Below are positions 26,639 to 57,938 of a DNA stretch of 64,000 nt, piece after piece (the first letter of the stretch is position 1; every line of letters begins with the position of its first letter). A model generated the notes under the pieces. It was not told the DNA's origin. It did not search any database and was given only the letters and a program-made list of their open reading frames with translations. The DNA comes from Sphaerotilus natans (GTDB lineage: Bacteria > Pseudomonadota > Gammaproteobacteria > Burkholderiales > Burkholderiaceae_C): the NCBI RefSeq assembly GCF_900156335.1, contig NZ_FTMZ01000009.1:62001-126000 (forward strand), written 5' to 3'. A program made the position numbers and the translations under genes.

Positions 26639-27625
26639 TCAGGTCTGGCTTCTTTCGGCATGAAGATCCCGATCTGAACCTTCTCGGAGAACAAGAGAAG
26701 CAACCCTGATGCGATCCGGCGGGCAAGCGGAAACATCATGAAACGAATCGGCCCGTGACCGGAAAAAGAGGCTCGCCTGCTGAGCCACCCAGTCCGGATC
26801 GTCCAGCGGCAGGTCGTGCCCGGCCTGAGGGTGCTCGAGCAGCGGCACCTGCCAGGCCCGGGCCAGCCGGCGGCTGCAGACGGGATCGACCAGCCGGTCG
26901 CCCGCGCCGGCCAGCAGCAGCAGCGGCACCGGCGGCGCCTGCTCCGGCGCATGAAAGCGCGCCGCGGCCAGCAGCTGGCGCAGCGCGTTGCTGTGGCGCA
27001 CCGGCCAGGCCTGCTGCCAGCCGACCCAGTCGTCCAGCAGCGCCTTCACGCCGGGCGAATCGGCCGCGATGCGGCTGGTCAGCGCCAGGATGGCTGCCTC
27101 GCGCTCGGGCAGCGACATCAGGCCAAGCTGGCTGCGCAGCAGCACCGGCCAGGCGCGCGGCTGCAGGCGCTGCCAGAAGGGATTGAGCGGCCGCACGCTG
27201 GTGTTGATCAGCACCATGCCGGCCAGTTCGTCGGGATGGCGCTGTGCCCAGGCGATGGCCACCATCGCGCCCAGCGACATCGCCAGCAGATGCAGCGGCC
27301 GACCGCTCAGGCCCGCCGCGCCCAGCTGCGCGCGGACCTGCTCGCGCAGCGGCTCGACCATGTCCTCGACCCGGCTCGCGCTGGTCTGCAGATGCGCGCG
27401 GCCGTTGCCGGGCAGGTCGGGCCGCAGCAGCAGCGGCCGCTCGCCCGGCCAGGCCCGCGACAGCCGCGCCGGGAAATCGCCCCAGTGGCGCGCATCGCGG
27501 CCCAGCCCGCGCAGCAGCACGCAGACCGGCTCCGTGCCCGCGCCGGCCACCGATGCACCGGCCGGCACCCGCTCATCAGGCCGGCGTGACGTCATCTCGC
27601 TCAGGTCCATCATCGATCGCCTCAT
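26639..27625 (-). CDS. Alpha/beta-hydrolase fold protein
   Basis: 328 aa. Core features: the oxyanion strand CVLLRGLGRDARHWGDF, the nucleophile elbow LLAMSLGAM (A-x-S-x-G rather than G-x-S-x-G), the acid in GAGDRLVDP and the His in PQAGHDLPL. It overlaps the upstream M14-type hydrolase gene by 4 bp and is probably co-transcribed. The last 35 residues (after SLFFRSRAD) lie in sequence of lower GC and have no family counterpart, so the original C terminus may have been altered by the same rearrangement that left the adjacent pseudogene. The substrate is unknown. Confidence 0.8.
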   Translation of the reverse strand: MRRSMMDLSEMTSRRPDERVPAGASVAGAGTEPVCVLLRGLGRDARHWGDFPARLSRAWPGERPLLLRPDLPGNGRAHLQTSASRVEDMVEPLREQVRAQLGAAGLSGRPLHLLAMSLGAMVAIAWAQRHPDELAGMVLINTSVRPLNPFWQRLQPRAWPVLLRSQLGLMSLPEREAAILALTSRIAADSPGVKALLDDWVGWQQAWPVRHSNALRQLLAAARFHAPEQAPPVPLLLLAGAGDRLVDPVCSRRLARAWQVPLLEHPQAGHDLPLDDPDWVAQQASLFFRSRADSFHDVSACPPDRIRVASLVLREGSDRDLHAERSQT

Positions 27626-28686
27626 GCTCGGGCTTCATGCTCCGGATACCAGTGGGCCAGCGCCGCGCGGCGACAGCGCTCGCGCTCGGCGCCCTGCGGC
27701 AGCCACAGCGCATGACCGCTGGCCGCTCGGGTCAGGAAATCCAGCCAGCCGATGTGCCGCCGCAGCACCCGCTGCTGCCGATGCGCGATCAATGGATTGA
27801 ACAGGCCGTCGCGCGAGAAGAGCTGGCGCGGGTTCTTGCGCACCCACAGCCAGGAGCCCATCTCCAGCGTCAGCGACAGAAAGACCGCTCGGGCATCGCG
27901 CGCCTGCGCGCTCAGGCTCAGGTGGTCCCACAGGTCCCCGTGCGCGAGATAGAGCCGGCTCTGCGGCTCGAAGACATAGGGGTGATGCACCTGGCTGGCG
28001 TCGAGCAGCGCCTTCAGCGCGTGCAGCTCCGGCAGCCACCCGATCGGCTCGCGGCGGCAGGCGTACGGAAACCAGATCCGGTCATGCAGCCCGAAGCCGG
28101 AATGGCAGTCCACCGCCAGGCTGAAGGGCCGGCCGAGCAGCTCCTGCTCGACCACCTCGCACAGCGCCTGGCTCTCGGCCTGCATCGGCGCGTCGGCCGG
28201 ACCGCGGTACCAGGGCAAGGCCGCACTCAGGCGCTGGCCGCCCACCAGGAAGGGAACGCGGCCGACGGCATCCTGCGGCGCATTGCGCATCAGGTCGACG
28301 CCCTGCGGATTGGCGCGTGTGCCCAGCCACAGCCCGCCCGGATTGACCAGCGGCATGAAGACCAGCCTGAGCGACTCCAGCTGACGCTGCTGCACCCGGT
28401 CCCAGGGCAGACGGCTCACCAGGGTGCGCAGATAGGCCAGCACCACCTCGGCACCGATGCGCTCCAGGCCATGCACGCCGCCGAACAGGCCGACCGCCGG
28501 CGCCTGCGGGTCCTCGCTGCCCATCGTCACCACCGGCACCGGAAACCGGCGCCCCGCCACCTCGACCTCGCAGGCGGTGCGAACCCGAACCCAGGGGCCG
28601 GCCTCGGCCATCAGCCGCTCCAGCTCGACCAGCGCCGCCAGTTCAAGGCGTGCCGCCTGCCGATGGACCTGATCTGCTGCCGTCAC
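27622..28686 (-). CDS. M14-family hydrolase (succinylglutamate desuccinylase/carboxypeptidase-like)
   Basis: 354 aa. Zinc-site features are GGVHGLERIGAE (His and Glu), AVDCHSGFG (third His), and the catalytic Glu in LSLTLEMGSW. This arrangement belongs to the M14/aspartoacylase superfamily; the TLEMG end is nearer to carboxypeptidases. It may cleave an amide or peptide bond in a small molecule. Translation appears to begin with GTG. It is coupled by a 4-bp overlap to the downstream alpha/beta hydrolase. It is the first leftward gene from the probable replication origin. Confidence 0.82.
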   Translation of the reverse strand: MTAADQVHRQAARLELAALVELERLMAEAGPWVRVRTACEVEVAGRRFPVPVVTMGSEDPQAPAVGLFGGVHGLERIGAEVVLAYLRTLVSRLPWDRVQQRQLESLRLVFMPLVNPGGLWLGTRANPQGVDLMRNAPQDAVGRVPFLVGGQRLSAALPWYRGPADAPMQAESQALCEVVEQELLGRPFSLAVDCHSGFGLHDRIWFPYACRREPIGWLPELHALKALLDASQVHHPYVFEPQSRLYLAHGDLWDHLSLSAQARDARAVFLSLTLEMGSWLWVRKNPRQLFSRDGLFNPLIAHRQQRVLRRHIGWLDFLTRAASGHALWLPQGAERERCRRAALAHWYPEHEARA

Positions 28687-28850: not shown

Positions 28851-28982
28851 ATGACCCGTGCCCGCCTGCCTCTCACGATGCGCGTGCTGACCCATCCTCT
28901 GTTGATTCTCGGCGCCGCGGCGCTGGCCGGCACTGTGGAAATCTTCGCCCTGTGGAAATGTCGCCGCCAGCGTCAGCGCTGA
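28851..28982 (+). CDS. Small single-helix membrane protein (43 aa)
   Basis: Reads MTRARLPLTMRVLTHPLLI, continues with GAAALAGTVEIFALWK and ends in a basic tail (CRRQRQR). One hydrophobic helix (about 16-34) with positive ends is visible. An AGGAG site lies 6 bp before the ATG, which is better than many larger genes here. I do not recognise a family. It ends 12 bp before the first DnaA-box-like nonamer of the probable origin, and two weaker TGTGGAAAT sequences fall inside it, so selection for origin function could also shape this sequence. Confidence 0.5.
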   Translation: MTRARLPLTMRVLTHPLLILGAAALAGTVEIFALWKCRRQRQR

Positions 28983-28994
28983 GCCGATCCGAAC

Positions 28995-29384
28995 TGTGGA
29001 TAAGTCGAAAAAAACAGCAGGTCGTGCGGCTGCCCCCGTGAGCTCATTCTGTGGACAAGCTTGTGCATAACTCTGATGATCCTGTGCACAAGCATGATAG
29101 TTCCTGTGGACAAGTTGATCATCAGACTCAGCACGTCATATTTTTTATTAAATGAAATCAATGGCTTGTCATGATTCATCTGGTTGGATTGGACAAGTCT
29201 GTGCATGACCTGAAGAGAAGCTGTGCATAGCATGGATGATCTGATGGCTTCTGGATCACGTTCTTGCAGCAGCCTGTGGATAAATTTGTGGACAAGCCTG
29301 TGAATAACTTCACCGCTCCGCTGATCTTCTCCCCGCGAACACCGCACTGCAGTCGCTGACGACAGGCGGCCATGCTGTGGATAA
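28995..29384 (+). other. oriC: Probable chromosomal replication origin (oriC)
   Basis: This AT-richer, non-coding stretch holds eleven nonamers close to the DnaA box (written on this strand as TGTGNATAA and near variants), at 28995, 29050, 29062, 29083, 29105, 29200, 29222, 29275, 29287, 29299 and 29376. Three are exact TGTGGATAA. All point the same way; pairs and triplets are 12 or 22 bp apart. An AT-rich segment (29136-29160, with TTTTTTATTAAAT) between the two box groups is a candidate unwinding element. The mnmG-rsmG-parA block that often accompanies bacterial origins is 4-8 kb away. dnaA itself is not in the window. Transcription on both sides runs mostly away from this point close by. 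Confidence 0.75.
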
Positions 29385-29437
29385 GATGCCGTCGCCCCTC
29401 TGCCTTTCCGACGTTTCGATCTGTCTGTAGCAACCCC

Positions 29438-29953
29438 ATGGCGACCGCACTTCCTCCCCTGTTCTGGACCGAACTGGACACCCCGCTCGGCACGATGATC
29501 CTGGCGGCTCGAGGCCGGGACGACCGGGCCGCGCTGGCCGGCGCCTGGTTCGTCGGCCAGCGCCATTTCGACGGACCGCAGGCCGACTGGCAGCGCGACG
29601 ATGAGCACCCGCTGCTGCGTGAGGCAGCCACCCAGCTGCGCGACTGGCATGCCGGCCGGCGGATCGACTTCGACCTGCCGCTGGCGCCCGAAGGCAGCGC
29701 CTTCCAGCAGCGCATCTGGCAGGCGCTGGGCCGCATCCCGCATGGCCGCACCTGCAGCTATGGCGAGCTGGCCGCGGCGGTCGGGCGCCCAGGTGCGGCA
29801 CGGGCAGTCGGTGCCGCCACCGGACGCAATCCGCTGTCCATCCTGGTGCCTTGCCACCGGCTGGTCGGACATGACGGCGCCTTGACCGGCTATGCCGGCG
29901 GCATCGAGCGCAAGCGCCAGCTGCTCGCCTTCGAGGCGGCCACCGGGCGCTGA
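29438..29953 (+). CDS. ogt: Methylated-DNA-protein-cysteine methyltransferase
   Basis: 171 aa. The acceptor motif is LVPCHRLVG with Cys139; the DNA-binding helix region HGRTCSYGELAAAVGRPGAARAVG (residues about 102-125) contains the arginine finger. It repairs O6-alkylguanine and O4-alkylthymine by suicide methyl transfer. Length fits the single-domain Ogt/AGT class; it lacks the Ada N-terminal regulatory domain. The ATG is preceded by the origin region, so its promoter must lie among or beside the DnaA boxes and DnaA could influence its expression. Confidence 0.92.
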   Translation: MATALPPLFWTELDTPLGTMILAARGRDDRAALAGAWFVGQRHFDGPQADWQRDDEHPLLREAATQLRDWHAGRRIDFDLPLAPEGSAFQQRIWQALGRIPHGRTCSYGELAAAVGRPGAARAVGAATGRNPLSILVPCHRLVGHDGALTGYAGGIERKRQLLAFEAATGR

Positions 29954-45269: not shown

Positions 45270-45397
45270 TCATCGGTCTCCGCAGCAATCGGAATGCCTG
45301 TTCTCGAATCAGCCATCCTGCGCGAAACGAAAGAACGACGCTACCGGCATCGATCCCTAGAGTCTTGCGGCATCACGACAAGAACCGGAGACTGACG

Positions 45398-48300
45398 ATG
45401 AATGCCCCTTTGCCCGCGCACACCCTGCTGCGCCCCGAGGTTCGGCTGGAGGACGCGCTGCTGGCGCGCAGCGGCACGGTGCTGCTCAGCGGCACGCAGG
45501 CGCTGGTCCGGCTGCCGCTGATGCAGCGCGACGCGGACACCGCACGCGGCCTGGACAGCGCCGGCTTCGTCAGCGGCTACCGCGGCTCGCCGCTCGGCCA
45601 GGTGGACCAGCAGGTCTGGAAGGCCAGGGCGGCCTATGACGCGGCGGGCGTGCGCTTCCTGCCCGCCATCAACGAGGAGCTGGCCGCCACCGCGGTGCTG
45701 GGCACGCAGCGCGTCGAGGCCGATCCGCAGCGCGAGGTCGAGGGCGTGTTCGCGCTCTGGTACGGCAAGGGGCCCGGCGTGGACCGCGCGGGCGACGCGC
45801 TGCACCACGGCAACGCCTACGGCGCCTCGCCGCACGGCGGCGTGCTGGTGGTCGCGGGCGACGACCACGGCTGCGTGTCCTCGTCGATGCCGCACCAGAG
45901 CGACCGCGTCTTCCAGGCCTGGAAGATGCCAGTGCTGTCGCCCGCCAACGTCGCCGAGCTGATCGAGTTCGGGCTGCACGGCTGGGCGCTGTCGCGCTTC
46001 TCGGGCGCCTGGGTCGGGCTGACGGCGCTCTCGGAGGTGGTCGAGAGCAGCGCCACCGTCGATCTGGACACCATCGCGCGGGCGACGGCGCGTTGGCAGG
46101 ACGCCGAGGCGGTGCGGGCGCAGACCGGCTTCGCGCCGCCGGCCGACGGCCTGCACTACCGCTGGCCCGACCTGCCCTCGCTGGCGATCGAGCAGCGCCT
46201 GCACGCCAAGCTCGACGCGGTGCGCGCCTTCGCCCGCGTCAACCCGATCGACCGGATAGTGATCGAGTCGGCGCAGGCCACCGTCGGCATCGTCACCGTC
46301 GGCAAGGCGCATGCGGACCTGATGGAGGTGCTGCGCCGGCTGGCGCTGTCGCCGGCGCAGCTGGCAGCGGCCGGCGTGCGGCTCTACAAGGTGGGCCTGA
46401 GCTGGCCGGTCGAGCCCACGCGGCTGCGCGCCTTCGCGCAGGGCCTGAGCGAGATCCTGGTCGTCGAGGAGAAGGCGCCGATCGTCGAGGAGCAGCTGCG
46501 CGAGCTGCTCTATGCCGCGCCCGCCGACGCCCGGCCCGCCGTGCTGGGCAAGCGCGACCGCCACGGCGCGCCGCTGCTGAGCGAGCTGGGCGAGCTGCGC
46601 CCCTCGCGGCTGATCGAGCCGGTCGCGGCCTGGCTGGCCGGCCATGATGCGCGGCTGGACCGCCGCGCCCTCGTCGTCGACTTCACCGTGCCGCGCCTGC
46701 CCGCGGGCACGCCCGAGGCGCCGCGGCGCGCGCCGTGGTTCTGCGCCGGCTGCCCGCACAACCTGTCGACGAAAGTGCCCGAGGGCTCGCGCGCGCAGGC
46801 CGGCATCGGCTGCCATTTCATGGCGAGCTGGATGGACCGCGACACCGAGGGCCTGATCCAGATGGGCGGCGAGGGCGTGGACTGGGTCTCGCACGCGATG
46901 TTCACCCGCGAGCCGCATGTCTTCCAGAACCTCGGCGACGGCACCTATTACCACTCCGGCTACCTCGCGATCCGCCAGGCGGTGGCGGCGAAAGCGACGC
47001 TGACCTACAAGATCCTGTTCAACGACGCGGTGGCGATGACCGGCGGCCAGCCGGTCGACGGCACGACCAGCCCGGACCGCATCGCCCGCCAGGTCGAGGC
47101 CGAGGGCGTGACGCGCATCGCGCTGCTCAGCGACGACATCGCCCGGTACGACGGCCAGCGCGACCGCTTTCCGGCTGGCACCACCTTCCACGACCGCGAC
47201 GCGCTCGACGCGGTGCAGCGCGAGCTGCGCGCCACGAAGGGCGTGACGGTGCTGATCTACGAGCAGACCTGCGCGGCCGAGAAGCGCCGCCGGCGCCGCA
47301 AGGGGGCGATGGACACGCCGGCGCGGCGGCTGCACATCCACCCCGGCGTCTGCGAGGGCTGCGGCGACTGCAGCGCGCAGTCCAACTGCGTCGCGGTGCA
47401 GCCGATCGACACGCCGATGGGCCGCAAGCGCCGCATCGACGCCTCGGCCTGCAACCTCGACGAATCCTGCGCCAAGGGCTTCTGCCCGAGCTTCGTCGGC
47501 CTGGTGGGCGCCACGCCCCGGCGGCGCAGCGGCGCGCTGACCGGCGCCACCGGCGCGGGCAGCAACTTCCGCCGCCGGGTCGAGGCGCTGCCCGCGCCCG
47601 TGCGGCCCGGCACGCTGGACGAGGCGCCCTGGGACCTGCTCGTCACCGGGGTGGGCGGCACCGGCGTCATCACCGTGGGCATGCTGATCGCGATGGCGGC
47701 GCATCTGGAGGGCCGCGCGGCCAGCGTGCTCGACTTCATGGGCTTCGCGCAGAAGGGCGGCGCGGTGCTGAGCTTCGTGCGCCTGGCCGACCGGCCCGAG
47801 CTGCTGCACCCGGTGCGCATCGACGCGCAGCAGGCCGACGCGCTGCTGGCCTGCGATCTGGTGGTCGGCGCCTCGCCCGAGGCGCTGCAGACGCTGCGCC
47901 ACGGCCGCACCCGGGTGGTGGCCAACCGGCATGAGACGCCGGTCGCCGCCTCGATGCACCAGCCCGACGCGCAGGTGCCGGTGGCCGACCTGTGCCTGCG
48001 CCTGGAGCGGGCCGCCGGCGCCGACCGGCTCGACACGCTCGACGCGCAGCAGCTCGCCGAGGCCTTTCTGGGCGACACGATCGTCTCGAACATCGTCGCG
48101 CTGGGCTTTGCCTGGCAGCGCGGGCTGGTGCCGGTGGGCCTGGCGGCGCTGGAGCGCGCGATCGAGCTCAACGGCGTCGCGGTCGAGGCCAACCGGGCGG
48201 CCTTCGCGCTGGGCCGGCTGGCCGCGGGCGACGCCGAGGGCTGCCGCGCGCTGCTGGGCACGGCCACCGCGGCGCTGGCGTCCGCCGACGCGTCCGCCGA

Positions 48301-49096
48301 CGCGTCTGCCGATGCGTCTGCCGATGCGTTCGCCGAGACGCTCGATGCGCTGCTCGCCCGCGGCACCGCGCTTCTGAGCACCTACCAGGACGCCGCCTGG
48401 GCCGCGCGCTGGCGCGAGCGCGTCGAGCGGGTGCGCGCCTTCGAGGCCGCCCTGCCCCCCTTGCCCACCACGCCCCCCTTCCGTCATTCCCGCGAAAGCG
48501 GGAACCCACCCCCCACCTCCACGCCCCCCCTGCCCCTCACCCACACCGTCGCCACCCAGCTGCTGCGCCTGATGAGCGTGAAGGACGAATACGAGGTCGC
48601 GCGGCTGCTGAGCGATCCGGCCTTCCTCGACAGCCTGAAGGCGCAGTACGAGGGCGACTGGCGGCTGGAGTTCCATCTGGCGCCGCCGTGGCTGGGCACA
48701 AAAAAGCGCCGCTTCGACGCACGCTGGATGCGGCCGCTGCTGCGGCTGCTGGCGCACGGCCGAGCCTGGCGCGGCCGCTGGTTCGATCCCTTCGGCCACA
48801 GCGCCGAGCGCCGGGATGAGCGCGCGCTGCTCGCCGCCTACGAGGCGCGGGTGGACGAACTGATCGAGGCGCTGCGCCAGGACGCCGCGCCGGCCAGGCG
48901 CCGGCTGGCGCAGCAGATCGCCGCGGTGCCGGCGACGATCCGCGGCTACGGCCATGTGCGCCAGCGCCACCAGGAAACCGCCCTGGCGCAGGAGGCCGAG
49001 CTGCTGCACCGGCTCGACCCGGCGCGCCACCCCAGGCCGGCCGGCGGCGCGCAGGCCGGGCAGTTCCGGGGGATCGCGATCAGCGCGACCCGCTGA
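45398..49096 (+). CDS. Indolepyruvate ferredoxin oxidoreductase, alpha/gamma fusion (IorAB type)
   Basis: 1232 aa. The N-terminal half binds thiamine diphosphate and 2-oxo acid (GYRGSPLGQVDQQVW; GIGCHFMASWMD; GDGTYYHSG). A Cys-rich 4Fe-4S segment near residues 650-695 contains CEGCGDC and CAKGFC. The gamma domain follows (VTGVGGTGVITVG), then a C-terminal region of the DUF6537 type. It decarboxylates aryl-pyruvates from aromatic amino acids to aryl-acetyl-CoA. Two unusual stretches occur between gamma and C-terminal domains: a 12-bp tandem repeat encoding ASAD units, and an in-frame REP-like insertion encoding FRHSRESGNP. The ATG follows a GGAG site. Lrp-type regulation is suggested by the divergent gene. 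Confidence 0.93.
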   Translation: MNAPLPAHTLLRPEVRLEDALLARSGTVLLSGTQALVRLPLMQRDADTARGLDSAGFVSGYRGSPLGQVDQQVWKARAAYDAAGVRFLPAINEELAATAVLGTQRVEADPQREVEGVFALWYGKGPGVDRAGDALHHGNAYGASPHGGVLVVAGDDHGCVSSSMPHQSDRVFQAWKMPVLSPANVAELIEFGLHGWALSRFSGAWVGLTALSEVVESSATVDLDTIARATARWQDAEAVRAQTGFAPPADGLHYRWPDLPSLAIEQRLHAKLDAVRAFARVNPIDRIVIESAQATVGIVTVGKAHADLMEVLRRLALSPAQLAAAGVRLYKVGLSWPVEPTRLRAFAQGLSEILVVEEKAPIVEEQLRELLYAAPADARPAVLGKRDRHGAPLLSELGELRPSRLIEPVAAWLAGHDARLDRRALVVDFTVPRLPAGTPEAPRRAPWFCAGCPHNLSTKVPEGSRAQAGIGCHFMASWMDRDTEGLIQMGGEGVDWVSHAMFTREPHVFQNLGDGTYYHSGYLAIRQAVAAKATLTYKILFNDAVAMTGGQPVDGTTSPDRIARQVEAEGVTRIALLSDDIARYDGQRDRFPAGTTFHDRDALDAVQRELRATKGVTVLIYEQTCAAEKRRRRRKGAMDTPARRLHIHPGVCEGCGDCSAQSNCVAVQPIDTPMGRKRRIDASACNLDESCAKGFCPSFVGLVGATPRRRSGALTGATGAGSNFRRRVEALPAPVRPGTLDEAPWDLLVTGVGGTGVITVGMLIAMAAHLEGRAASVLDFMGFAQKGGAVLSFVRLADRPELLHPVRIDAQQADALLACDLVVGASPEALQTLRHGRTRVVANRHETPVAASMHQPDAQVPVADLCLRLERAAGADRLDTLDAQQLAEAFLGDTIVSNIVALGFAWQRGLVPVGLAALERAIELNGVAVEANRAAFALGRLAAGDAEGCRALLGTATAALASADASADASADASADAFAETLDALLARGTALLSTYQDAAWAARWRERVERVRAFEAALPPLPTTPPFRHSRESGNPPPTSTPPLPLTHTVATQLLRLMSVKDEYEVARLLSDPAFLDSLKAQYEGDWRLEFHLAPPWLGTKKRRFDARWMRPLLRLLAHGRAWRGRWFDPFGHSAERRDERALLAAYEARVDELIEALRQDAAPARRRLAQQIAAVPATIRGYGHVRQRHQETALAQEAELLHRLDPARHPRPAGGAQAGQFRGIAISATR
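48278..48337 (+). repeat. 12-bp tandem repeat in the oxidoreductase gene
   Basis: Five consecutive 12-bp units, two GCGTCCGCCGAC, two GCGTCTGCCGAT and one diverged GCGTTCGCCGAG, encode ASAD repeated (then AFAE). The units keep the reading frame. This is the kind of repeat that expands by slippage and probably varies among strains. Confidence 0.85.
48481..48507 (+). repeat. REP-like palindrome inserted in frame in a coding sequence
   Basis: Contains TTCCCGC and GCGGGAA around a GAAA loop, preceded by CGTCA. This is the widespread 'CGTCATTCCCGCGAAAGCGGGAA' type of short interspersed repeat found between genes in many proteobacteria. Here it lies inside the fused oxidoreductase gene and is read as part of the protein, flanked by Pro/Thr-rich low-complexity codons. 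Confidence 0.8.
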
Positions 49097-49122
49097 CAGG
49101 CCGTATCGGCCCGGCGCGATCT

Positions 49123-49482
49123 TCAGCCACGCGGCGAGCGCGCCAGCCGATAGCTCATGTAGTTGCCCTGCAGCAGCTGCGAGTACTGGCAGCTCTGCGC
49201 GTGGCCGCGGGCGCAGTAGGTGTCGAAATAGGCCAGGCCGTTGTAGAAGGCATCGCAGTCGCGCCAGTAGCTGTTGACCGCGCAGCCGTAGCCGGCGGTG
49301 TCGGTGCTGACGTAGTACTGGTAGAGCGCCAGGTCGGAGACCGGCGGTGCACTGCCGCCGCCCGAGGCTGGCGGCGGGCTGGCCGAGTCGTCTCCGCCTC
49401 CGCCTCCGCCGCAGCCGGACAGCGCCAGCGCCAGCAGCAGGACCAGAGGGCGGATCAGGCGCCGGGGTCGGGGGGTGGACAT
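49123..49482 (-). CDS. Small Cys-rich lipoprotein of unknown function
   Basis: 119 aa. Lipoprotein signal with lipobox LALSGC followed by a Gly stretch and a Ser/Pro-rich linker. The rest (about 55 residues) holds four Cys (YGCAVNSYWRDC, TYCARGHAQSC) and many Tyr/Asp, suggesting a compact disulphide-bonded domain. I do not recognise the family. It is convergent with the oxidoreductase gene. The Cys/Tyr pattern might bind metal or peptidoglycan, but this is speculation. Confidence 0.65.
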   Translation of the reverse strand: MSTPRPRRLIRPLVLLLALALSGCGGGGGGDDSASPPPASGGGSAPPVSDLALYQYYVSTDTAGYGCAVNSYWRDCDAFYNGLAYFDTYCARGHAQSCQYSQLLQGNYMSYRLARSPRG

Positions 49483-49645
49483 GGCAGGTCTCCTCGTCAG
49501 GCCGATGAATCGGCTCATTTGAAAAATCTCGATCAATCGGAAAAATATCACGACGTTCTTCACATGGGAGCAATGATTCCTGACGCAACGCCTGCAGCGA
49601 TGTCCGGACACGACAGCGCCGCGCCCGGCCGCGCACAATCTCGCC

Positions 49646-50761
49646 ATGAACACCCTCGACGATCCCCGCCACGACCGTGAAGCCGGCTCGCGCCGCAGCA
49701 CCCGCGACACCACCCGCATCGACGACACCCGCATCGACGCGGTGCGCCCCCTGATCACCCCGGCGCTGCTGCACGAGCGCCTGCCCGTGAGCGAGGCCGC
49801 GCAGGCGCTGGTCGAGCAGGCGCGCAGCGAGATCGCCGACGTGCTGCACGGCCGCGACGACCGGCTGATCGTCGTCGTCGGGCCCTGCTCGATCCACGAT
49901 CACGCGCAGGCGATGGAATACGCCGCGCGCCTGAAGCCGCTGGCCGACGAGCTGCGCGGCGAGCTGGTCACGGTGATGCGCGTCTACTTCGAGAAGCCGC
50001 GCACCACCGTGGGCTGGAAGGGCTACATCAATGACCCGCACCTGGACGGCAGCTTCGCGATCAACGAGGGCCTGGAGCGCGCGCGCGCCCTGCTGCTCGA
50101 CATCCTGGGCGCCGGCCTGCCGGCGGCCACCGAGTTCCTGGACCTGCTCAGCCCGCAGTACATCGCCGAGCTGATCTCCTGGGGCGCCATCGGCGCGCGC
50201 ACCACCGAGAGCCAGAGCCACCGCCAGCTCGCCTCGGGCCTGAGCTGCCCGGTCGGCTTCAAGAACGGCACCGACGGCAGCATCCGCATCGCCGCCGACG
50301 CCATCCTGGCCGCCAGCGCGCCGCACGCCTTCATGGGCATGACCAAGATGGGCGTGGCCGCCGTCTTCGAGACCCGCGGCAACGCCGACTGCCACGTCAT
50401 CCTGCGCGGCGGCTCGAAGGGCCCGAACCACGGCACGGCCGATGTGGACGCCGCCTGCGCGATGCTGAAGACCTCGGGCCTGCGCGAGCAGGTGATGGTC
50501 GACCTGTCGCACGCCAACAGCAGCAAGCAGCACCGCCGCCAGATCGAGGTCGCCGAGGACATCGCCACCCGCATCGCCGCCGGCGATCAACGCATCACCG
50601 GCGTGATGATCGAGAGCCACCTGGAAGAAGGCCGTCAGGACCTGGTCGCCGGCCAGCCCCTGAAGCACGGCGTGTCGATCACCGACGCCTGCATCGGCTT
50701 CGCGCAGACCGAGCCGGTGCTGCGCCGGCTGGCCGAGGCGGTGCGCGCACGCCGCGGCTGA
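49646..50761 (+). CDS. aroG: 3-deoxy-7-phosphoheptulonate synthase (type I DAHP synthase)
   Basis: 371 aa, type I DAHP synthase: VVVGPCSIHDHAQAMEYA, EKPRTTVGWKG, TESQSHRQLASGLSCPVGFK and GGSKGPNHG are the metal and phosphoenolpyruvate-binding motifs. It condenses PEP and erythrose-4-phosphate at the entry to the shikimate pathway. The isozyme (Phe-, Tyr- or Trp-sensitive) cannot be decided here. The N-terminal 30 residues are polar and rich in Asp/Arg/Thr, unlike most homologues. It stands alone, with an AT-rich 160-bp upstream gap. Confidence 0.94.
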   Translation: MNTLDDPRHDREAGSRRSTRDTTRIDDTRIDAVRPLITPALLHERLPVSEAAQALVEQARSEIADVLHGRDDRLIVVVGPCSIHDHAQAMEYAARLKPLADELRGELVTVMRVYFEKPRTTVGWKGYINDPHLDGSFAINEGLERARALLLDILGAGLPAATEFLDLLSPQYIAELISWGAIGARTTESQSHRQLASGLSCPVGFKNGTDGSIRIAADAILAASAPHAFMGMTKMGVAAVFETRGNADCHVILRGGSKGPNHGTADVDAACAMLKTSGLREQVMVDLSHANSSKQHRRQIEVAEDIATRIAAGDQRITGVMIESHLEEGRQDLVAGQPLKHGVSITDACIGFAQTEPVLRRLAEAVRARRG

Positions 50762-52720: not shown

Positions 52721-52741
52721 TTGTTCCTGTTATGTGAACAA
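52721..52741 (+). promoter_or_regulatory. Inverted repeat upstream of the LRR-kinase gene
   Basis: TTGTTC and GAACAA arms flank a 9-bp spacer in the AT-rich gap before the LRR-kinase gene. The right arm is part of a DnaA-box-like nonamer. It may be an operator; the regulator is not known. Confidence 0.3.
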
Positions 52742-52778
52742 ATTGCGAATTAATCAAAAAATGAATCATTCTTTGAAC

Positions 52779-54113
52779 ATGATCAAATCCGAATCCACAC
52801 TGGCGGCCCTGCGGCGCGGCGACCTGGCCGGCACACGCCGGCTCGACCTGCGCGGCTGCAATCTCGAGCGGCTGCCCGAGGAGGTCTTCGCGCTGGCCGA
52901 CACGCTCGAGGAACTCGACCTTGGCGACAACCGGCTGAGCACGCTGCCCGACACGCTGCCGCGCCTGCACCGGCTGCGGGTGATCTTCGGTTCCGGCAAC
53001 CCGTTCACCGAACTGCCGGAAGTGCTCGGCGCCTGTGGACAACTTTCGATGATCGGCTTCCGCGGCTGCCAGATCGACACCATTTCCGGCGCAGCGCTGC
53101 CCCCACGGCTGCGCTGGCTGATCCTGACCGACAACCGCATCTCACGGTTGCCAGACGCCTTGGCTGAACGCCCCGATATGGAAAAGCTTATGCTGGCCGG
53201 CAACCGTCTCGAGGCCCTTCCCGACCTGTCGGCCAGCCCGCGTCTGGCGCTGCTGCGCCTGGCGGCAAACCACTTTTCCACAGCCCCCGGCTGGCTGGTC
53301 AGACACCCTGCCCTGGCCTGGCTGGCGCTGTCCGGAAATCCATTTGTCCACAGACTTTTCCACAGGCTTTCACCGTCCGGGATCACCACGCTATCCCCTT
53401 GTCAGATCAAGGAAGATCAGCTGATCGGTGAAGGCGCATCCGGACTTATCCACAGGGCATGGCTGAACGAGAATCCGCCCCTGCCGGCCCGCCCGGTCGC
53501 GCTCAAGCGCTTCAAGGCGGCGATGACCAGCGACGGTCTGCCCGACTGCGAACAGGCCGCCTGCCTGGCCGCTGCCGGCCATGCGTCGATCGTCGCCGCC
53601 GAGGCCCGGGTCGCCGATGCGCAGGGACGCACCGAAGCGCTGGTGCTGCCGCTGCTCGGCCCGGAATTTCGCCCGCTCGCCGGCCCGCCAAGCCTCGCCT
53701 CCTGCAGTCGCGATGTCTATGCCGACGGGCTGACCATGCCTGTGGACAAGCTGTGGATAATTCTGCAGTCGATCGCCTCCGCAGCCGCCCATCTTCACCG
53801 TGTCGGCCTGATGCATGGCGACCTCTATGCCCACAACATCCTGTGGAACGGCGAGGATCGTGCGCTGCTGAGCGACTTCGGCGCCGCCAGCTTCCTGCCC
53901 GAGGCCGCCGGACTGCGCGCCGGTCTGGAGCGGCTGGAGGTGCGCGCCTTCGGGCTGCTGGTCGAGGAGCTGCTGCAGCGCGCCGACGATCCGGCCGATG
54001 CCCGCTGCGCGCAGCTGGCCGCGCTGCGCGAGGACTGCCTGCAGCCGGAGGTGGCGCGGCGGCCGGCATTCGGCGAGATCAGCGCGCGGCTCGGGCCTGC
54101 CAGCGCGCGATGA
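52779..54113 (+). CDS. Leucine-rich-repeat serine/threonine kinase
   Basis: 444 aa. The N-terminal part (about 10-205) holds 7-8 bacterial-type leucine-rich repeats (LEELDLGDNRLSTLPDTLPR and similar). The C-terminal part is a protein-kinase domain: Lys243 in VALKRF, catalytic loop HGDLYAHNIL (Asp348), and DFG at 366-368. All key residues are present, so it is probably active. Such kinases occur in Pseudomonas and Burkholderiales and look eukaryote-like; targets are unknown. The preferred ATG begins the conserved part; an ATG six codons earlier and a GTG are also in frame. DnaA-box-like nonamers lie at six or more places in it. The 3' end overlaps the DTW gene by 35 bp. Confidence 0.85.
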   Translation: MIKSESTLAALRRGDLAGTRRLDLRGCNLERLPEEVFALADTLEELDLGDNRLSTLPDTLPRLHRLRVIFGSGNPFTELPEVLGACGQLSMIGFRGCQIDTISGAALPPRLRWLILTDNRISRLPDALAERPDMEKLMLAGNRLEALPDLSASPRLALLRLAANHFSTAPGWLVRHPALAWLALSGNPFVHRLFHRLSPSGITTLSPCQIKEDQLIGEGASGLIHRAWLNENPPLPARPVALKRFKAAMTSDGLPDCEQAACLAAAGHASIVAAEARVADAQGRTEALVLPLLGPEFRPLAGPPSLASCSRDVYADGLTMPVDKLWIILQSIASAAAHLHRVGLMHGDLYAHNILWNGEDRALLSDFGAASFLPEAAGLRAGLERLEVRAFGLLVEELLQRADDPADARCAQLAALREDCLQPEVARRPAFGEISARLGPASAR

Positions 54114-54717
54114 AGCGCTCGAAGCCGTCGAGCATCGGCTGGTAGCGCGTCTCGTCCTGCTCCAGCTGCGCCAGCGCGGTGCAGACCGCCTCCAGCGTCG
54201 AGAGCTGGTCCGCCCGGCGGGCGCGGCGCATCGCGCGGTAGCGCGGCGGCGGCAGGTCCTGCAGGGCCAGCCGCGGCAGCGCCATCAGCGCTGGATTGAG
54301 ATGCAGCATCTTCAGGCTCTTGCGCCAGGTCGCGTCCAGCACCACCAGCCGGCTCACCGCGCCCGCCTCGGCAGGTAACCGGAATTTCGTGTTTTCCACA
54401 GCCTGAGGCGATGTCGACGGCATCGGCGTCTGTGGATAAAGCAGCCGGGCGCCCGGGCCGAGCCCGTCCGACAGCGCCTGCGCATCGAAGCGCTCGCCGA
54501 TCTCGAGCCGCACCCGGGTCAGGCCGAGCGCCAGCAGCGCCACGCTGTTCTTCGCCTCGTGCGCCTCCAGCGGATGCTGCAGGATCAGCACCTCGATGCG
54601 GTTGTCCACAGGCGTCACCAGATCGCACAGGCAGGCGGGCAGCGGCCGGATGCAGCGCGGGCAGAGCGGGCGACGGGGCTTCGCTGTGAGTAACTTTATT
54701 TCAAGAAAATCGGTCAT
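54079..54717 (-). CDS. DTW-domain tRNA-uridine aminocarboxypropyltransferase
   Basis: 212 aa. The DTW signature [14 protein letters not shown] (DxTW as DATW), Cys-rich zinc ribbon [17 protein letters not shown] and [15 protein letters not shown] belong to the TapT/TuaA-type enzymes that make acp3U in tRNA from SAM. The ATG begins the family match; the frame upstream is open but unsupported. It contains three DnaA-box-like nonamers in its coding sequence. Divergent to the luciferase-like gene and convergent with the LRR-kinase gene. Confidence 0.88.
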
Positions 54718-54772
54718 GGGGACATGTTGCGGCCACGCGGACGCCGACGGCGATCCGGCGCAAGATGGCGCG

Positions 54773-55783
54773 ATGATCCCAGCCTCCGAACCGATTCCGC
54801 TGTCCGTGCTCGATCTGGTGCCGATCGCCGAGGGCGGCGATGCCGCCACCGCGCTGAAGCACGCACTCGAGCTCGCCCGCCATGCCGAGCGCTGCGGCTA
54901 CCGCCGCTACTGGCTCGCCGAGCACCACAACATGGACGGCCTGGCCTGCTCGGCCACCGCCGTGCTGATCGCGCACATCGCCGCGCACACCCGCACGATC
55001 CGCATCGGCGCCGGCGGCATCATGCTGCCCAACCATGCGCCGCTGGTGGTGGCCGAGCAGTTCGGCACGCTGGCGACGCTGCATCCGGGACGCATCGAGC
55101 TCAGCCTGGGCCGCGCGCCCGGTACCGACCGCGCGACGATGCGGGCGCTGCGGCGCTCGCTCGACAGCCGCGGCGAGGACGCCTTTCCCGAGGATGTCGC
55201 CGAGCTGATCGGCTACCTGGACGAGGCCCGGCCCGGCGCCCCGGTGCGCGCGCTGCCGGGCCAGGGCACGCAGGTGCCGATCTGGCTGCTGGGCTCGAGC
55301 CTGCACGGCGCGCAGCTGGCGGCCTGGCTGGGCCGGCCCTACGCCTTCGCGGCGCATTTCGCGCCCGACCTGCTCGAGCAGGCGGCCGAGATCTACCGCA
55401 GCACCTTCCGCCCCTCGCCGGTCTGCCCGCGCCCGCACCTGATGGTCGGCACGCAGGTCCTGGTCGCCGACAGCGACGCGGCCGCGCAGCGACTGTTCAC
55501 CTCGACGCAGCAGCGCTTTCTCGGCATGGTGCGCAACCAGCGCGGCCCGCTGCCGCCGCCGGTGGACAGCTTCGACGCGCTGTGCAGCCCGCAGGAGCGT
55601 CGCCAGGTCGACCGCATGCTGGCCGAGGCCATCGTCGGCGCACCGCACACGGTGCGCGCCGGTCTGCGCGCGCTGGTCGAGCGCACGCAGGCCGACGAGA
55701 TCATCCTGACCGGCGCGACCTTCGATCCGGCCGCACGGCTGCGCTCGCTGGAGCTGGCCATCGGCTGCGCCGATCCGAGTTGA
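54773..55783 (+). CDS. LLM-class flavin-dependent oxidoreductase (luciferase-like)
   Basis: 336 aa. The MsnO8-type luciferase-like fold: [12 protein letters not shown], then [20 protein letters not shown] and [19 protein letters not shown], and [18 protein letters not shown]. These enzymes use reduced flavin with oxygen on unknown organic substrates. The start ATG precedes the first strand. Its stop codon abuts that of the convergent Crp-type gene within TGATCA. Confidence 0.88.
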
Positions 55784-56566
55784 TCACATCTTGTCCACAG
55801 GCTTATCAACAAGCTTATCCACAGCATCGGCGGTGGCGGCTCCTGAAGAACTGCCGGATCCTGCATCCTCCTTTTGCAGGCGTTCCGGATCCAGAAGCTC
55901 GATGACACGACGGCGGCGGCGGATCAACCCATCCGCCTCCAGCCCGGCCAGCACCTCGTTGACCGTCTGGCGCGACAGCGACAGCATGCGCGCGAGCTGC
56001 TCCTGCGACAGCACGAGCTCGCGGCGCAGCGTCGGCCGGTCGACCTGGTGATCGGCGGCCATCATCACCAGCCGGCGCGCCACCCGGGCGCGCGGCGGCA
56101 GCATCTGCATCTGCTCGAAGGAGACAAAGACGCTGCGCATCTTGCCGGCCAGCATGCGCCCCAGATGCCGCCAGCCCTCGGGCTCGCGCTCGAGCACCGC
56201 CAGCATGGCGGTCTGCGGCAGATGCAGCAGCACGACGTCGGTCTCGGCGTGAACGTCATGGGTGCGCGGCGCACCATCGAACAGGCCCAGCTCGCCGAAC
56301 CAGTGCGGTGGCTGGACCATCGCCAGCAGCGCCTCGCCCCCATCGCCGGTGCTGCCGACGCGCAGGATGCCGTCGGACAGGCCGTAGAAGCCGTCGGAAG
56401 GATCGCCCCGTGCGCACAGCCGCTCGCCGGCACGCAGATAGCGCGGCTGGACGCGCCAGGCCAGCTCGATCTGCAGCGCACGCGGCAGCGTCTGGAACCA
56501 GCTCTCCGGCGCCAGCATCGCGCGCGCGACGCGCGGATCACCGAAATCGCGATGCAGCGCGTTCAT
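55784..56566 (-). CDS. Crp/Fnr-family regulator
   Basis: 260 aa. An N-terminal cyclic-nucleotide-binding-type beta-barrel (about 40-150; GDPSDGFYGLSDGILRVG, WFGELGLFDGAPRTHDV) and a C-terminal winged helix (LVLSQEQLARMLSLSRQTV) are clear. The N-terminal Cys of FNR are absent, so an oxygen-sensing cluster is unlikely. The extreme C terminus, DAVDKLVDKPVDKM, is unusual and is encoded by three DnaA-box-like nonamers spaced 12 bp apart. The start ATG precedes NALHRDFGDP. It ends against the LLM gene. Confidence 0.87.
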   Translation of the reverse strand: MNALHRDFGDPRVARAMLAPESWFQTLPRALQIELAWRVQPRYLRAGERLCARGDPSDGFYGLSDGILRVGSTGDGGEALLAMVQPPHWFGELGLFDGAPRTHDVHAETDVVLLHLPQTAMLAVLEREPEGWRHLGRMLAGKMRSVFVSFEQMQMLPPRARVARRLVMMAADHQVDRPTLRRELVLSQEQLARMLSLSRQTVNEVLAGLEADGLIRRRRRVIELLDPERLQKEDAGSGSSSGAATADAVDKLVDKPVDKM

Positions 56567-56618
56567 GACGCACCGCCTTGCCGGGACATCACCGCATGGC
56601 CCCCCTCCATGCGGTGCA

Positions 56619-57938
56619 TCACTCGGCGGCTGCGGCGCGCAGCGTGTCCAGCGCCTGCGCCAGCTCCTCGGCCGCCACGCCCTCGCCCGGCATGACCGGC
56701 GCGCCCTCCAGCGCCGCAGCACCTTCGGTCTTCAGGCGCTTGACCCATTCGCCGGCCTCACGGCCGCCGGCGAACGCCGTGCTCTGCAGCAGCACGCGGC
56801 CGTCCGCGGCGGCGAGCTTGAAGTAGAACTGGCCGTCGGCCTCGCGGTACTGCTTGAAGACCGGCAGCGCGGCCTTCTCGGCCCGGGCCTTCGGCGCGGC
56901 GCTGACCGGCGCGGCCACCATGCGGCGCAGGCCGACGGCGTGGCGCAGCTCGGCCAGCAGCGGCGCGGCCGTCGCGCGGGCCTTGGCGGCGCCGGCCATC
57001 AGGATGGCCTCCAGCTCGGCCGGCTGCGCGATCAGCGCCTCGTAGCGCGCGCGCATCGGCGCGATCTCGGCGTCGATCAGCTCGAACAGGCGCTGCTTGG
57101 CCTCGCCCCAGCCCAGGCCGGCCACCAGCTCGGCGCGGAAGGCGGTGGCCTGCTCCGGCGTCGCGAAGGCCTCGAACAGCGTCACCAGCGAGGTGCTGTC
57201 CGGGTCCTTGGGCTCGCCCGGCAGCTTCGAGTCGGTGACGATGCGCGCGATCGCCTCCTTCAGCGCCTTGGCACCGCCCGCGAACAGCGGGATGGTGTTG
57301 TCGTAGCTCTTGCTCATCTTGCGGCCGTCGAGGCCGGGCAGCACCGCCACCTGCTCCTCGATCACCGCCTCGGGCAGCACGAAGAACTCGCGCCCGCTGG
57401 CCGCGCCGAACAGGTGGTTGAAGCGCTGCGCGACATCGCGCGCCATCTCGATGTGCTGGATCTGGTCGCGCCCGACCGGCACCTGGTGCGCGTTGAACAT
57501 CAGGATGTCGGCAGCCATCAGGATCGGGTAGCAGTACAGCCCCATCGTCACGCCGGCGTCGGTGTCCTCGCCGGCGGCGGTGTTGGCATCGGCGGCGGCC
57601 TTGTAGGCGTGGGCGCGGTTCATCTGGCCTTTGGCGGTGACGCAGGTCAGCAGCCAGGTCAGCTCCGGGATCTCGGGAATGTCGCTCTGGCGGTAGAAGG
57701 TGACACGCTCCGGGTCCAGGCCCGCGGCCAGCCAGGTCGCGGCCAGCTCCATGCGCGAGCGCTCGATGCGCGCCGGGTCGTCGCACTTGATCAGCGCGTG
57801 GTAGTCGGCCAGGAACAGGAAGCTCTCGACCTCGGCCTGACGGCTCGCGGCGATGGCCGGGCGGATGGCGCCGACGTAGTTGCCGAGGTGGGGAGTGCCG
57901 GTGGTGGTGATGCCGGTCAGGACGCGGGTGGTGGGCAT
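56619..57938 (-). CDS. trpS: Tryptophanyl-tRNA synthetase with C-terminal extension
   Basis: 439 aa, class I TrpRS. The HIGH-type motif is TPHLGNY (15-21) and the KMSKS motif is intact (207-211). Residues 1-340 correspond to a standard bacterial TrpRS; about 95 residues follow, in which [19 protein letters not shown] (371-389) resembles a DUF1508/YegP-like strand pair. This extended form is seen in betaproteobacteria. The ATG fits the family. The opposite-strand neighbour is the exported DUF4197 gene. Confidence 0.93.

Follow-up and report, generated by a model that had tools for sequence, protein, structure and literature searches.

The window analysed here is a 64,000-nucleotide stretch of Sphaerotilus natans DNA (contig NZ_FTMZ01000009.1; G000:C35:62001-126000, from a 4.63-Mb genome in 57 contigs), and our subject is a locus within it, at 52733-55823, where nonamers resembling the binding site of the initiator protein DnaA (DnaA boxes) are crowded into protein-coding genes. 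The locus begins with a gene for a leucine-rich-repeat (LRR) and protein-kinase-like protein (52761-54113, plus strand; Pfam LRR_8 and PK_Tyr_Ser-Thr, in a scan from the GTG at 52734), followed by a DTW-domain gene (54079-54849, minus strand, likely start near 54717; Pfam DTW, 7e-40), an open reading frame between the DTW and Crp genes (54596-55783, plus strand) and a gene for a Crp-family regulator (55784-56722, minus strand; Pfam cNMP_binding and HTH_Crp_2). The LRR-kinase gene has named relatives in Sphaerotilus sulfidivorans D-501 and Leptothrix sp. C29, alongside one metagenome bin.

We took as an exact DnaA box the pattern TTNTCCACA, in which eight bases are fixed and the third is free. 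A recount returned the same 14 box-like nonamers that an earlier note had reported for this interval, namely 12 exact boxes and the near-consensus sites TTATCAACA (55803) and TTGTTCACA (52733). That note's description of them as nearly all coding is borne out, with 13 of the 14 inside reading frames (seven exact boxes in the LRR-kinase gene, three in the DTW gene, and two together with TTATCAACA in the Crp gene). The 12 exact boxes, all within coding sequence, span 2.8 kb; at the rate of sites outside clusters, 12 or more in such a span would have P of about 3e-32. Across the window there are 19 exact boxes against 0.40 expected, and 100 dinucleotide shuffles yielded at most 2, in agreement with the note's rough reckoning of far less than one by chance.

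Homologous genes carry boxes in seven species (G000, which is the window's own genome, G006, G001, G007, G004, G005 and G009; L046, L047 and L048 were not counted as further species), with LRR protein identity to the window's copy down to 57%. In the LRR-kinase gene, boxes at 53034-53042 (TTGTCCACA, minus), 53446-53454 (TTATCCACA, plus) and 53741-53749 (TTGTCCACA, minus) occur in all seven. The box at 53344-53352 (TTGTCCACA, plus), where the amino acid varies together with the third base, occurs in six; that at 53752-53760 (TTATCCACA, minus, 11 bp from box 53741) in four; that at 53356-53364 (TTTTCCACA, plus, 12 bp past box 53344) in three; and that at 53274-53282 (TTTTCCACA, plus) in two, G000 and G001. 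The DTW boxes at 54392-54400 (TTTTCCACA, plus) and 54602-54610 (TTGTCCACA, plus) are retained in G006, G001 and G009, and the one at 54431-54439 (TTATCCACA, minus) in G006 and G001 and not in G009; box 54602, in the DTW overlap, is also the sole box of the frame between the DTW and Crp genes. A trio in 12-bp register, all on the plus strand, sits at the 3' end of the Crp gene: TTGTCCACA at 55791-55799 (aligned base for base in G001, not G006), TTATCAACA at 55803-55811, and TTATCCACA at 55815-55823 (aligned base for base in G006, not G001). The remaining site, TTGTTCACA at 52733-52741 (minus), lies 5' of the LRR-kinase ATG (52761) and is found in one of six relatives.

Box clusters along the genome

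The whole genome holds 68 exact TTNTCCACA sites, compared with 14 for the reversed control pattern, and their distribution is markedly uneven. On contigs C35 and C23 no other 3-kb stretch has as many sites as the queried locus, and the other contigs have only widely separated sites; with 12 of the 68, the locus carries more than any other 3-kb stretch genome-wide, a ranking that the earlier note had proposed to check. Six clusters outside oriC, which we label A to F, hold 40 of the 68 sites (41 counting one single site between them). In joined coordinates, their distances from oriC are 366 kb for A (window 29 kb; 6 exact sites), 341 kb for C, the queried locus (12), 307 kb for D (C35:149.8 kb; 6), 300 kb for E (C35:156 kb; 9), 295 kb for B (C23:345 kb; 3) and 228 kb for F (C23:278 kb; 4). 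The 41 sites of this region span 139 kb, or 3.0% of the genome, and make up 41 of the 61 non-oriC sites; oriC holds 7, which leaves 20, close to the 14 of the control. Box density is thus not similar throughout the genome, being close to control elsewhere.

The sole Bac_DnaA_C gene lies on C23, where the 0.7 kb or so 5' of the likely dnaA start contain seven exact boxes; the queried locus is therefore not linked to dnaA within its contig. Its distance from dnaA-oriC, about 341 kb or 7% of the genome, assumes that C35 and C23 adjoin end to end, as synteny with G006 and G001 indicates. The earlier note had placed a probable origin about 24 kb away, and this does not hold: the cluster at 29 kb in the window (cluster A) is not a dnaA-linked origin, because dnaA is on C23. 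The main contig of G009 is 4.83 Mb long, and on it about 487 kb separate dnaA (1.327 Mb) from the counterpart of the queried locus (1.812 Mb), which has 16 sites; the G009 map lists 80 of its 92 sites and covers up to 2.88 Mb, with a further cluster possible beyond.

Totals of exact sites (control counts in parentheses) are 71 (18) in G006, 58 (11) in G001, 95 (20) in G004 and 92 (33) in G009, all box-bearing, and 24 (15) in G010, 46 (33) in G012, 21 (11) in G002, 26 (17) in G008, 28 (23) in G003 and 17 (11) in G011, which are other species of the genus. Same-strand box pairs with a gap of 28 bp or less number 15 in the window's genome, four of them at oriC. The maximum was 5 among 199 other genomes of the family (in G009) and 5 among 299 others of the order, in even, partly overlapping samples, the family sample including only three species of this genus. 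Among other genomes of the family, several closely paired boxes also occur at G238:C75:66600-66659 and in four places in G177, which are possible independent cases.

In the DnaA protein of this genome (L012:6625-8844), the N-terminal and ATPase domains are separated by about 285 residues, a very long domain II, and the DNA-binding domain has a motif that we take to be of the E. coli type. Open frames of dnaA tend to be longer in box-bearing species than in others, with overlap. At L012:6112-6204, about 0.6 kb 5' of where dnaA probably starts, there are five exact boxes and one near-consensus box, and the first five of these sites keep a 12-bp register. We considered a DnaA paralogue as the binder of the boxes and rejected it, the genome having only one gene with a DnaA C-terminal domain. 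Loss of Hda as the cause of the extra boxes was likewise set aside: 13 of 13 genomes have a match to a separate Hda-like gene, above the curated cut-off in seven and below it in G000, G001, G006, G007, G002 and G008.

Conservation of the boxes and selection on DNA

The LRR comparison drew on matches in 39 of 100 genomes, of which 19 near-full-length proteins were used (the window's own included), the rest being partial kinase matches. In the seven box-bearing species the LRR gene contains 6-8 boxes and the DTW gene 3-5, and protein-preserving codon shuffles gave means of 0.09-0.31 boxes and never more than 3 in 2000. None of 12 outgroup LRR homologues (46-54% identity) has a box inside the gene, though one outgroup (G024) has a site at the edge of the fetched flank, and six outgroup DTW loci have none, in a scan that left out the second, weak match of G010 (L128). 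A tree of all 19 LRR proteins places the box-bearers in one group (support 89/98); presence of boxes needs a single change on this tree, and none of 500 label shuffles required as few.

We compared retention of the eight fixed bases with that of phase-matched windows. For the LRR gene, 6 of 7 boxes are retained in G007 (1.29 expected, P 2e-4), 4 of 7 in G009 (0.55 expected, P 0.001), 4 of 7 in G004 (P 0.002) and 3 of 7 in G005 (P 0.03), and retention in the DTW gene gave P 0.004-0.03 in the more distant species. Loss of boxes at synonymous positions in close relatives, which the earlier note had named as evidence to the contrary, is therefore not what we see, since distant relatives keep boxes above phase-matched windows. 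Divergence over clusters A-E is sharply position-specific: against G006 it was 0.012 at the eight fixed bases, 0.151 in the flanks and 0.188 at the third base (32 of 37 boxes aligned), and against G001 it was 0.037, 0.231 and 0.333, respectively (27 of 37 boxes, two more having been excluded because of a gap or over three differences). The fixed bases are thus 6- to 13-fold below flank divergence and the third base is not reduced, the pattern predicted for a binding site that tolerates change solely at its third base. Amino acids follow the box variants, one box encoding PFVHR, PFIHR or PVFHR when it reads TTG, TTA or TTT. The retention, codon-shuffle and position-specific divergence tests together strongly support selection on the boxes at the DNA level, in line with the earlier note's suggestion that selection acts on the DNA.

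Some features of the host genes may bear on where boxes occur. Between G000 and G006, third-position substitutions are 61 of 115 in the LRR gene, 20 of 44 in the DTW gene and 62 of 122 in the Crp gene (window 52761-56722); in an M14 peptidase gene at 27622-28686 they are 47 of 54, a far greater excess. Weakly constrained proteins may be those able to host boxes. At L011:10837-11261, five boxes fall in a gene encoding a MazG-like domain and a 2OG-Fe(II) domain, mostly between the two, and boxes may favour interdomain linkers. The Pfam scan gave no match for the frames at 54724, 45341, 56565 and 28973; that at 45341-50668 (minus) is 1775 codons long, and a 1243-codon plus-strand frame overlaps it.

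Neighbouring clusters and their IHF sites

Two neighbours of the queried locus differ from it in pairing boxes with exact sites for the DNA-bending protein IHF. Cluster A (28995-29384, minus strand) consists of same-facing boxes, six of them exact and five of these intergenic. Between them is an exact match to the IHF consensus (AATCAATGGCTTG, 29156-29168, plus strand; 0.02 expected in the window), which the same-facing boxes flank on both sides. The sixth exact box (29376) stands at the start of a coding-looking plus-strand frame, and the other five are in non-coding-like DNA. The frame at 28973-29872 stays open in G006; its substitutions by codon position (55, 38 and 39) have no third-position excess, unlike those of neighbouring genes, and we read it as non-coding. 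The IHF site is exact in G006 as well, likewise 51 bp from a box, and is absent from cluster A of G001 and from the near-A clusters of G002, G008 and G012. Cluster A is better read as datA-like than as an origin and is probably the most regulatory-looking locus of the window.

Cluster B (L014:6815-7076, equivalent to C23:344814-345075) has a triplet, TTATCCACC (plus), TTATCCACA (minus) and TTGTCCACA (minus), with gaps of 2 and 5 bp, retained in G006 and not in G001. An exact IHF site lies about 200 bp from the triplet, and a SET-domain gene adjoins. Exact IHF matches near cluster B recur in G006, G001, G003 and G009, and not in G010. In the stretches covered by the scan, an exact box lies within 200 bp of 8 of the 13 exact IHF matches (one of the 8 overlaps a box variant), and IHF alpha is encoded in all six genomes tested.

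For comparison with E. coli, we used what we take to be the places of DARS1, datA and the rpmH-like genes. At the presumed datA, boxes are followed by an opposite-facing IHF site and then by further boxes, the last one turned; cluster A matches this element better than the queried locus does. The presumed DARS1 region has a box triplet with gaps of 5 and 3 bp, and the cluster B triplet has the same topology.

Smaller clusters in other species of the genus offer a view of how this arrangement arose. Those of G003 and G010 adjoin homologues of cluster B's SET-domain gene, and those of G002, G008 and G012 are close to homologues of genes located 3-10 kb away from cluster A; because of these positions, B looks ancestral, and A possibly so. 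The coding boxes of the queried locus were seemingly gained later, in one lineage. Near cluster B in G003 there is also an abutting opposed box pair, TTGTCCACA/TGTGGACAA (L099:5011-5028).

A probable titration role and its alternatives

Our data suggest that the queried locus is probably a selected, coding-embedded DnaA titration array, one of a series of box islands that lie to one side of oriC. This reading draws on the boxes themselves, their excess, their conservation, their restriction to one species group and their position a few hundred kilobases from dnaA-oriC, all of which are read from sequence, and we infer that DnaA binds them. The region would be replicated soon after initiation; the number of boxes would therefore double early and free DnaA would fall, which would delay re-initiation (initiator titration). 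Side-by-side binding of DnaA may be aided where boxes pair on the same strand at a spacing of 11-12 bp. The IHF-bearing neighbours A and B may act as datA- or DARS-like switches, with the coding clusters as passive sinks.

Several observations weigh against titration by the locus. Boxes turn over, the seven LRR boxes comprising three common to all seven species and others found in six, four, three and two; retention is weak in the two closest relatives (P 0.10 and 0.04 for LRR, 0.26 and 0.10 for DTW); and the divergence estimates omit unaligned boxes (5 of 37 for G006, 8 of 37 for G001), which biases them toward conservation. The distance from oriC in the window's genome also depends on the synteny-based join of two contig ends, and the order of the clusters is rearranged in G009.

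Among the roles that the earlier note had proposed, titration fits best. The locus might itself be a datA- or DARS-type element that acts on the nucleotide bound by DnaA, through ATP hydrolysis or ADP release, and it does resemble E. coli datA in its several dense boxes and oriC-proximal place, datA lying a few percent of the chromosome from oriC according to PMC4585315 and PMC5295017. However, datA is there described as non-coding with an IHF site between its boxes, whereas the array of the queried locus sits in coding sequence and has no exact match to the IHF consensus WATCAANNNNTTR. Two one-mismatch sites occur, at 52752 and 53747, of which the second is box sequence and the first is common only to G006 among six relatives; exact IHF matches in G005 and G009 overlap a box variant. 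An opposed core of the DARS type is also lacking, as all neighbours less than 30 bp apart are on the same strand and the nearest opposed pair (54392/54431) is 39 bp apart, compared with 14 bp in the E. coli DARS1 region. The likeness to DARS1 and DARS2, going by what PMC8682772 reports of them, is confined to cluster B, with its opposed pair, third box and IHF site about 200 bp away. Lacking both an exact IHF site and a close opposed pair, the locus gives no support to a catalytic role, and we regard such a role as unlikely despite the exact IHF sites in clusters A and B.

DnaA also acts as a transcription factor, and through the boxes it could regulate any of the three host genes (LRR-kinase, DTW or Crp), tying their transcription to the cell cycle, as the earlier note also proposed. 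The near-consensus box at 52733, 5' of the LRR gene, would suit such a role, but it occurs in just one of six relatives, and unrelated genes of the other clusters carry boxes too. Transcriptional coupling is poorly supported because the 12 exact boxes lie within coding sequence, and we think it distinctly improbable. Slightly less probable again is that another protein, such as a chromosome-organising factor, binds the motif TTNTCCACAG. The clusters stretch across 139 kb, and G follows at position 10 in 39 of 42 sites (one of the 42 outside clusters), so that the full motif is a decamer; yet the identical motif forms the cluster just 5' of dnaA, and just one gene with a DnaA DNA-binding domain was found. 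Neutral clustering, whether it came from chance, from base composition or from what is left of an old replicon, is very hard to credit given the shuffle controls, the presence across seven species and the position-specific constraint, even though box-bearing LRR genes have somewhat lower GC at third codon positions than most high-GC outgroup genes.

Titration of DnaA by chromosomal boxes, and enrichment of boxes near oriC, have been reported in E. coli, where according to the authors experimental support had been lacking until recently (see PMC12371093). That study describes boxes over-represented near oriC, many of them copied soon after initiation, a likeness to our data, but with a looser motif it counts hundreds across the chromosome; in our case, the excess relative to control falls in one 139-kb region and oriC, in tight intragenic clusters at homologous positions. 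In B. subtilis, deletion of six DnaA-box clusters (DBCs) is reported to cause early initiation (PMC5295017), and like those DBCs, the boxes here form several clusters outside the origin, six in number. Ours differ in being largely coding, in belonging to an unrelated phylum and in having up to 16 exact boxes (G004 and G009). What appears to be new is the concentration of almost the whole excess in one region and oriC, the intragenic conservation of boxes and their effect on protein sequence; our literature search, which covered few subscription papers and in which "datA" also matched "data", found no such clusters or datA- or DARS-like loci described in this lineage.

We put forward more tentatively, as a possibility we would not yet call probable, that a domain of 70-140 kb serves DnaA control, in which two nodes combining IHF and DnaA sites, a datA-like A and a DARS2-like B, would bracket coding titration arrays. 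Selection for DnaA binding would dictate codon and amino-acid choice in unrelated host genes, and the domain would have grown within a single lineage of Sphaerotilus/Leptothrix, starting from one or more ancestral intergenic clusters (B, and perhaps A too). Two thirds of the non-oriC sites are in 3% of the genome and are measurably under selection, and titration is therefore testable by recoding a few genes. The finding points to candidate datA- and DARS-like loci in this lineage and provides a clear case in which an apparent DNA-binding role shapes the amino-acid sequence of unrelated proteins.

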